64,000 nt of DNA, taken from assembly GCA_001986395.2 (NCBI GenBank), contig MQVO02000008.1, forward strand, positions 744,001 through 808,000. Reading direction: 5' to 3'. This document shows positions 34,215 through 36,706 of this stretch, piece by piece. The notes under the pieces were generated by a model that saw only the letters and a program-made list of their open reading frames with translations, had not been told where the DNA came from and searched no databases. The stretch's first letter is position 1; the number at the start of each line of letters is the position of its first letter. Made by a program: the position numbers and the translations under genes. The DNA is from Irpex lacteus. Taxonomy: Eukaryota > Basidiomycota > Agaricomycetes > Polyporales > Irpicaceae.

Positions 34215-36706
34215 ATGGCACAGACACACTCGCAGAAGTTTGCACCGCCAATATCTCACGATAATGTTTTCTTCTACTACGGCGGACACCCAAACTTCTC
34301 ATTTTATGTCAAGGTCGAGAACCGCGGCGTTTTCCACCAACACCCTCGCGCAGAGCCCTCCTATCTGCACTCGCTATTGACTCACCAGGCGGTGGCTGGT
34401 CCCGGAGCTGCACATCACAATGTCCCTTCCTTCAAGGACGAGACTGAACACTTCTACTGTGCGCAGCTGTTGCACTACGGCTTGAAACCGCTGAAGACCA
34501 AGGCACCAGCGAAGAAGGCGTTACTGACAGCGTTTGGCAATGGAAATACGCTTCTAGTCCCAAATCACATCTTGGAACTTGAGCGACGACTTAGGCAAGA
34601 ATATGAACTGGCCAATGCTCAGCTTGGATACGCCGAGCGTAAGACCGAAAGGAAGACTCAGGGGCACAGGGGCAACGAGAAACTTGGACAAGTGTTCGCT
34701 CAAGGAACGTTGGCCAGTACAAAGCCACCTATTCAAGAGGTCCGACGTCAGGCCCCTGTAAAGGCGGCCCCGCAGCCTATGGCACGGACGAAGCAGACTG
34801 CCGTCAAGTCCAATGGCAAGAAGCCAACCGTTGGTGGAAGTAAAGTGCGTCCGATATCTACGTCCATCTTCTCCACGCAAAGTTTCATATGATCTATCCG
34901 TAGAAACCCACCCACGCGGACACCACAGGGAGCTTCGACGTGCACGCCCCTTCTCTCAGCTCCGAATGGCCCGACATGTGCCCCGAAGGCTTCACACTCG
35001 AAATGGCCCCCTCAAAGAAGACAGGGCGTCATTTCTGGGCTTCCTTCGACTTTGGCATCATCACAGGCGTGATGCGCTGCTCTCGCCCACCAACTGCTGT
35101 CGGTGGAACCTGCACGTTCACCTGGCGCGGTGAGGAGTCCAGCGAGGGCCAGATATTATTCGGAGACTCGCAGAAGGGGACGATCACCTTTCTAGGGGGT
35201 GGTAGATTCAAGGGAGTGATGGAAGGCGCGTTCTTCGGTAAGGCGCAGTTCGAAGGAAGAAGGAATGAAGATGCGGCTACGAATCATGCGTGCGGTGTGT
35301 ATGTCAAGGATTGGAAGAGTCAATACCGGAGCATCAACGGCAGCGCGTACGCAGTGGCGGGAACCAGTCGATGGGGTGGTTGGGTGGAGGATACTTCGCG
35401 ACCCGACCGGCCTGCTGATTCGGATTCTAGCGCCGGTGGGGCCTTTGACTCTGAGTACAGTGGTGACGAGACACCAGAAGATCGCAGGACTGCTGGCTAT
35501 CCTGCAGGGAGGGCCTCCGGATCGAAGCTCGGCAGTACAAGCCAACCCACCACTCTAGGCCGCAGAACAAAACAAACCGCTCGCAAGAGTGCGTATAACC
35601 CCCATACTCGGAGGTCATACGACAACGAATTCGGGCACGCACTGTCCGATTCTGTAGGCAGCGATTGGGATGATGAGCCGGCCGCTAAGAAGTCGAAGAC
35701 TAAGCAACCTGAGGCGGCACGTCAAACCAGCACTTCGAGACTTGACATGGAGCCTCCAACGTATAGACGAAGGACGAAGCAGACGGCCAGGAAATCGGGC
35801 TATAGAGTACCTGCACGATGGAGGGACGAAGAGTTCGGAGAGGGTTATGGCTCTGAGAGCGATGATCGTGGCTCCGAGGGCTATATTGATGATGAGCTAC
35901 GGACGATCGAGGGAGTACCAAAGTTACGCCTTGAAGACACGGCGCCTGTCGAGGCCCCGCCTGCAGTGCGTCCGCGCAGGACGAAGTTGACGGCTCGTAA
36001 AAGTGCGTACCGAGTCCCGGAGTCGCAGGAGGTGAAGGTACGTGCGCGTTGCGTTCCGCTACTGCATAACATGAGCTTGATCCTCTCATGCCTGCAGCTC
36101 AAGCCTCGCGACACCACCGGTAGCTTTGAAGTGCAGGCCCCCGAGCTCAGCAACGGTCGGTCCTACCAGACCGTCGACGCACCTCCCAAACTATGGCTCA
36201 AGCTCCTGCCGTCACGGTCCAAGCGTCGTCTGTGGGCCTCGTTCGACTTTGGGATCGCCTCTGGTATAATGCGAGGTTGGGCGGAGACTCCTGTCGTCGT
36301 CGGTAACGCATGCAGCTTCAAATGGCGTGGAAAGAAGGGCGGCGCCGACGACGAGGGAGAGCTCATTTTCGGCCAGGATAACTTCGGAGCAGTGACGTTC
36401 TTTGGTGATGGAAAGATTAGGGTTATCATTGAAGGCAGCTTCTTCGCGCGGATGACGTTCACGGGGACTCAAACTGGTGAGAGGACGACGAGTAAGGTGT
36501 GGAAGAATCATCTGAGGGAGTGGAAGGTGCGGTATCGGAGTATTAATTATACCGCTCATGCTATTGCCCACCGGGCGAGGTGGGGAGGCTCGAATCAGCA
36601 ACAGACTCATACCGAAGGACCTGCTGCTTCGGACACCAGCGACGACGAAATGGATGTTGACCCAGATTATGGGGGAGGCAATTATGACTCACCTTATGTT
36701 TTGTGA
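34215..36706 (+). CDS. Protein with four histone H3 N-tail-like motifs and a duplicated unknown domain
   Basis: Exons 34215-34844, 34904-36037 and 36098-36706 (GT-AG introns of 59 and 60 nt) give about 790 residues. Residues 1-150 form an N-terminal domain (NVFFYYGGHPNFSFYVKVEN ... HILELERRLRQEYELAN). H3-like motifs: [16 protein letters not shown] (189-204), [12 protein letters not shown] (430-441), [12 protein letters not shown] (499-510), RRTKLTARKSAY (568-579); the last three are exactly 69 residues apart, with acidic Ser/Asp/Glu linkers. Two copies of one globular domain, about 211-370 and 589-750, each begin DTTGSF(D/E)V, contain WASFDFGI and end YRSIN...RWGG; an intron precedes each. 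No histone fold, signal peptide or membrane span. The motifs copy H3 residues 1-10 (K4, K9, S10 positions). Function unknown; a substrate or decoy for H3-tail readers or writers is inference. The ATG at 34215 is the first in frame. Confidence 0.85.
35561..36037 (+). repeat. 69-residue tandem repeats carrying H3-tail-like motifs
   Basis: Inside exon 2: repeats begin at 35561, 35768 and 35975, a 207-nt period. Units 1 and 2 are full (H3-like motif, a basic/aromatic stretch with DNEFG or DEEFG, then an acidic linker); unit 3 is cut by the exon end. Confidence 0.85.

Follow-up and report, generated by a model that had tools for sequence, protein, structure and literature searches.

To our knowledge, histone mimics are mostly viral, or are single short sites in mammalian chromatin proteins. 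G9a/GLP and ATF7IP, as an excerpt of PMC9768651 describes them, carry H3K9-type mimic sites inside mammalian non-histone proteins. The PRC2 inhibitor EZHIP (CXORF67), itself no histone, carries a short, conserved imitation of an H3-tail segment; the methionine of its K27M-like peptide blocks PRC2 competitively (excerpt of PMC6513997). Here we analyse a gene of Irpex lacteus whose product resembles histone H3 in four internal N-tail-like segments, but differs from it in having no histone fold. As in G9a/GLP and ATF7IP, an H3-like site is internal to a non-histone protein; in contrast to those mammalian K9-type sites, the fungal match covers H3 residues 2-10, is repeated four times and, across its family, keeps K4 better than K9 (comparison with the same excerpt of PMC9768651). 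The family shares with EZHIP a conserved short H3-tail copy and, in part of its members, a long aliphatic residue at the acceptor position (excerpt of PMC6513997). However, EZHIP mimics H3K27M, whereas the fungal motif matches H3 2-10, and its copies in the gene studied here keep the lysine: an EZHIP-type M or I is found at the acceptor position in none of these four copies, and I, L or M in 29 of 227 family sites. Set against known histone mimics, the H3-like match is, by the comparisons below, beyond chance and kept better than the disordered sequence around it.

The window is the whole stretch of I. lacteus DNA that was analysed, 64,000 nucleotides of contig MQVO02000008.1 (positions 744,001 to 808,000), and coordinates are positions within it. 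The gene and its features are as follows.

34215..36706, + strand: whole coding span, three exons, 790 aa, stop included; homologues found
34215-34844, 34904-36037 and 36098-36706, + strand: exons of the gene model
34248..34604, + strand: N-terminal domain, aa 12-130; predicted strands, then four helices
34782..34811, + strand: H3-like motif 1, aa 190-199; internal Met before the motif
34845..34903, + strand: intron 1, GTGCGT...TAG, 59 nt; in-frame stops inside
34925..35374, + strand: C-type domain, first copy, aa 218-367; fold taken only from the model of relative P0028
35561..35590, + strand: H3-like motif 2, aa 430-439 (430-441 with flank); by motif pattern
35768..35797, + strand: H3-like motif 3, aa 499-508 (499-510 with flank); by motif pattern
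35975..36004, + strand: H3-like motif 4, RRTKLTARKS, aa 568-577; by motif pattern
36038..36097, + strand: intron 2, GTACGT...CAG, 60 nt; stop-free, so the unspliced frame stays open
36116..36583, + strand: C-type domain, second copy, aa 595-750; by domain comparison

Both introns have GT..AG ends, all four motif copies are internal in the 790-aa protein, and motif 4 with its flank (aa 568-579) reads RRTKLTARKSAY. A sequence-only reading of this DNA had described four H3 N-tail-like motifs in a protein of about 790 residues without a histone fold. Both points were borne out: the motif sequences stand as first written and, as shown below, their pattern exceeds chance genome-wide; no Pfam histone match was found in the 790-aa protein, and the predicted folds are non-histone, alpha/beta for its N-domain and beta-barrel for the C-domain of P0028. 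The same reading had counted two globular domains; the protein has a single N-type domain and the C-type domain twice. No paralogue of the gene was found in the 44,346,346-bp genome. By eye, the flanking frames at about 33162-33413 and about 37906-38115 (both - strand) resemble the beginning of a type-B carboxylesterase and of a DEAH-box (Prp43-like) helicase.

The four copies follow the pattern R-T-K-[QL]-T-A-x-K-S. All four have K at position 4 and keep K9-S10, and R8 is kept in three, copy 1 being the one without it; ARK[ST] is likewise found in three copies, with AVKS in copy 1. Positions 11-12 read N-G, A-Y, G-Y and A-Y in copies 1-4. A degenerate back-translation of R-T-K-x-T-A-x-K-S, fitted to these four copies, gave 11 matches in the 44,346,346-bp genome, four in this gene and seven in H3 or H3-like genes, and the pattern read backwards gave none in the same genome. 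Divergent H3-like genes, besides canonical H3, are among those at C187:778004 (L018), C268:16467 (L019), C66:110735 (L015) and C37:759671 (L013), the last of which looks degenerate.

At the codon level, motifs 2 and 3 have none of the nine codons of RTKQTARKS in common and no residue difference, and motifs 3 and 4 share five codons. These comparisons bear on the possibility that the motif is a functionless relic of an H3 exon. In the H3 genes L016 and L017 the frame is broken at GTAAGT right after the tail, which would make their first exon a ready-made tail module for exon shuffling, and motif 1 reads M-A-R-T-K-Q-T-A. An H3 origin of the motif 2 copy is possible because five of its nine codons are common to six of the seven H3 genes, these being five consecutive codons in L014 and L016. 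However, motif 3 shares only 1-2 codons with the H3 genes and none with motif 2, and the motif residues are kept while the linker diverges. We consider such a relic extremely improbable, and the absence of a present function in the motif is already disfavoured.

Conservation was compared directly between motif, linker and domain. Against relative P0002 (its residues 1-351), the three shared motifs keep 27/27 residues, as compared to 121/132 in the domain and 130/191 in the remaining linker. Across 45 pairs with the motif in both members, identity was 0.71 in the motif, 0.45 in the linker and 0.71 in the domain, and the motif exceeded the linker in 39. A further 44 pairs were picked without requiring the motif in both members (25 pairs carry it twice, 19 in a single member); here the values were 0.587, 0.455 and 0.717, with the motif above the linker in 30 of the 44. 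The sequence-only reading had proposed to test whether the motif is conserved where the linkers are not; the motif was kept better than the linker in most pairs of either set, and in P0002.

To our search of Pfam, neither the 790-aa protein nor ten relatives returned any family. A first homologue search yielded 70 proteins, with candidates picked via shared 5-residue words, motif words included. Because these words included the motif, the linker was then masked (replaced by X) and the search run with an 11-member alignment of both domains as query, giving 210 proteins at E <= 1e-4, of which the best 120 were analysed. Named members among the 120 matches listed are ascomycetes, basidiomycetes and one chytrid. 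A second masked search, directed at basidiomycetes, returned 110 proteins, 48 of them with both domains. The family plan consists of an N-domain, a disordered basic linker and a C-terminal beta-barrel domain; the C-domain is duplicated in the 790-aa protein, which is one of 8 among 246 family proteins with two C-domains of more than 100 residues each. In a tree of 148 proteins, the nearest row to the window protein is Irpex rosettiformis P0001, and a 100% supported split separates 30 from 118 rows, the named rows being basidiomycetes on one side and, on the other, ascomycetes except for one chytrid. This sole named chytrid protein, P0102 (Gaertneriomyces), groups within the ascomycete side, possibly by contamination or transfer. 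In literature searches aimed at the family or at fungal histone mimics, no description of the family was found among the open-access PMC papers listed, as covered by titles and the starts of abstracts.

AlphaFold, run on a 112-member alignment with P0028 as first row, gave high-confidence predictions for both domains and a mostly disordered linker. The N-domain of the window protein (aa 1-135) was predicted with a mean pLDDT of 88.9 and has no convincing match in the PDB. For the C-domain of P0028 the prediction is a calycin-like meander barrel; its closest known counterparts are the calycin-type beta-barrels (FABP, lipocalin, avidin) and GID4, without a firm structural match. A strand pair was also predicted, with low confidence, at residues 151-162 of P0028. 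Barrels of this architecture are common to small-molecule binders and to GID4, which was solved with bound peptide, and the motif could on these grounds be a ligand in cis, bound by the protein's own barrel or N-domain. We regard this as very unlikely: the P0028 linker is predicted to be mostly disordered, and members without the motif retain both domains. A, K, S, P and T abound in the linkers, and NLS-like basic runs occur in 153 of 163, a set that includes the window protein. PPxY motifs, possible WW-domain/Rsp5 ligands, are present in 66 of the same 163 linkers, and a stretch like VDLTVNVGGINITVS recurs on the ascomycete side.

Outside the domains of the best 120 of the 210 proteins from the linker-masked search, RTKQTA is found in 34, QTAR in 81 and QTA[RK][RKC] in 88. 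At least 7/9 identities to RTKQTARKS are reached in 53 of these best 120 (best identity 7/9 in 29 proteins, 8/9 in 15 and 9/9 in 9), as compared to none with shuffled or reversed linkers: shuffled linkers (20 rounds) never exceeded 6/9, and reversed linkers gave 6/9 once. A word count made without reference to H3 returned QTAR as the top 4-residue word, present in 48 of 69 representatives against 0.4 expected, with KQTA, TARR, TKQT and RTKQ also among the top 20. When H3 windows were slid along the linkers, those starting at residues 2, 1, 3, 4 and 5 reached at least 7/9 in 53, 45, 27, 26 and 14 linkers, and those starting at 6 and 7 in 7 and 6; the next among the best eight windows, that of K27, did so in 4. 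Judged by the genome pattern, the shuffled and reversed linkers and the sliding windows, the resemblance to the H3 tail is beyond chance.

Tables anchored on QTA give the site consensus P-R-T-K-Q-T-A-R-[RK]-[SG]. Some basidiomycete copies extend to RTKQTARK[ST]TGG, which equals H3 2-13 with T allowed at position 10, and many ascomycete-side copies read ARRGG or ARRSG. In P0064, P0066 and P0067 the second half of a 13-residue motif stretch resembles the H3K27 context, which may be coincidence. The linker composition and the ARRGG and ARRSG copies, which are close to RG-type arginine methylation sites, would suit a motif that mimics nothing, namely a basic NLS, an RNA- or DNA-binding motif or an arginine-methylation motif that is H3-like by composition only. 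This explanation is improbable to us, since composition-matched shuffled linkers never attain 7/9 identities, the uncharged Q-T-A belongs to the most enriched words, and NLS candidates are already supplied by separate KRK-type runs.

The motif is present on both sides of the fully supported split. On the tree, 112 of the 148 proteins carry a site, with 20 changes between presence and absence, and among the 48 full-length proteins of the basidiomycete-directed search 16 have the motif (14 in strict form) and 32 do not. In Schizophyllum commune, where the homologues P0006 and P0007 represent a laboratory strain with the motif, the second family proteins P0074 and P0163 are without it, and a KQSARKTSQ stretch of P0074 looks like a decayed copy. 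Because motif identity exceeds linker identity in the compared pairs, the motif looks constrained where present, yet often gained or lost. Orthologues that lack the motif or let it drift had been named beforehand as evidence against mimicry; recurrence across the family and better conservation than the linker speak for mimicry, whereas the many orthologues without the motif (32/48) speak against it.

To determine which H3 positions are kept, a site was defined as a [QL]TA place with at least 5/9 identities to RTKQTARKS, which gave 227 sites, spread over 126 of 163 proteins. K occupies position 4 in 181 of them and I, L or M in 29, whilst position 9 is R in 111, K in 83 and I, L or M in one. 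With a slightly narrower site set, the window's side of the tree has K4 in 37/40 and K9 in 30/40, with S or T at position 10 in 28/40; on the other side (narrower set, 140 sites), K4 is found in 105, K9 in 46, R9 in 73 and C9 in 16. The earlier suggestion that K9-type recognition was the better guess did not hold family-wide (K4 181/227 against K9 83 and R 111), and it fares better on the window's side, where the contrast is small. Because K9 is kept there in 30/40, the preference for the K4 side rests mainly on the other side of the tree. On these counts, an H3-tail mimic is more likely to be K4-side than K9-side.

In a K9-type mimic, an H3K9 enzyme of Clr4/DIM-5 type would methylate the ARKS part, to which an HP1-like chromodomain would then bind, as with G9a or ATF7IP in mammals. 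All four window copies offer K9-S10, three of them R8, and on the window's side of the tree K9 and S/T10 predominate. Three matches to Pre-SET and 58 to the chromodomain (PF00385) in the genome could supply such partners, and a 4-residue G9a-type pattern fits 58/227 family sites (pattern from an excerpt of PMC10611923). However, R9 outnumbers K9 family-wide, no window copy has T11-G12, and copy 1 is without R8. In vitro, DIM-5 needs R8-G12: R8A and G12P abolish activity, and S10A and T11A greatly reduce it (excerpt of PMC3248561). The R8-K9-S10-T11-G12 context, with S or T allowed at 10, is found in 0/4 window copies and 18/227 family sites. We consider the K9-type mimic unlikely. Many of the 58 PF00385 matches sit in open frames of more than 1000 aa and are probably chromodomains of LTR-element integrases.

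Position 4 was analysed with an anchor on QTA[RK][RKC] only, assuming nothing for positions 1-4. Among residues other than K, I, L or M make up 24 of 50, as compared to 7.8% expected from linker composition; control values are 4/94 at position 3 and 3/56 at position 2. The fraction is 15/30 in 117 representatives and 6/16 in 83 representatives (p ~9e-4 in the latter), and the signal rests on few lineages and shrinks under stricter redundancy removal, with 13 changes on the tree between proteins with and without an I/L/M site. Such an enrichment would be expected under selection by a pocket that takes a long aliphatic side chain. It would also suit a sharper form of H3-tail mimicry, in which an H3K4 enzyme (Set1/COMPASS or a K4 demethylase) would take the motif as substrate or pseudosubstrate, with the side chain of position 4 inserted in the lysine channel and I, L or M acting as K-to-M-type traps.

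Position 4, as K or a long aliphatic residue, fits this proposal, and EZHIP offers a precedent for a non-histone protein that blocks a histone methyltransferase via a K-to-M-like peptide (excerpt of PMC6513997). Human MLL4 prefers [LAPIGV]-[VPLRKI]-[TVIALYS]-K-x-x-x-[GRKP]-[RK], a 9-residue preference that fits 76/227 family sites, allowing P at -3 and R at +5 (excerpt of PMC12551112). None of the window copies fits it, however (V at +4 in copy 1, R at -3 in copies 2-4), and all four have K rather than a trapping residue. MLL4 moreover accepts any residue at Q5-T6-A7, which is the core that the family keeps best, and the enzyme assayed was human (same excerpt of PMC12551112). Use by an H3K4 enzyme is, on balance, quite improbable.

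It is fair to read the gene product as an endogenous multivalent H3 mimic, in that the resemblance recurs family-wide and is kept better than the linker. We posit that the protein is an H3-tail mimic docked by a putative H3-tail-binding factor, the K4 side being more likely, and judge the chances of this reading to be even. The product would be a fungal scaffold protein, probably nuclear to judge from the NLS-like basic runs, whose folded domains hold a disordered basic linker. This linker would expose short imitations of H3 tail residues 2-9, to be docked by a factor normally bound to H3, and the four copies would confer avidity. The likelier docking centre is the K4 side, comprising R2, K4 or a long aliphatic residue, Q5, T6, A7, R8 and a basic residue at 9. 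Docking could not require a free N-terminus, given that the copies lie inside the protein, and readers that need one should not be served. The docking partner would be one of the H3-tail factors, and the outcome could be recruitment, substrate use or inhibition. Against H3-tail mimicry, the P0028 model leaves the linker mostly disordered, without a bound state.

In its most far-reaching form, which we hold to be decidedly unlikely, an old fungal family would provide an endogenous multivalent, K4-centred H3-tail decoy, in which K or a trapping I, L or M at position 4 makes a tunable substrate or pseudosubstrate of H3K4 enzymes. This would be a fungal counterpart of EZHIP for the active mark, and lineages would differ in the number of copies and in the K/I/L/M state.

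Taken together, a family with as many as four near-exact copies of H3 2-10, which persist where the linker around them diverges, suggests that these fungi may make a decoy or docking site of their own for the readers or writers of histone marks. If true, they would possess a native factor that regulates or recruits the H3-tail machinery, in a kingdom whose chromatin genetics is strong, and anti-H3-tail antibodies may recognise a non-histone protein in these fungi. It would also allow a direct test of a cell's freedom to tune its own histone readers by decoys.
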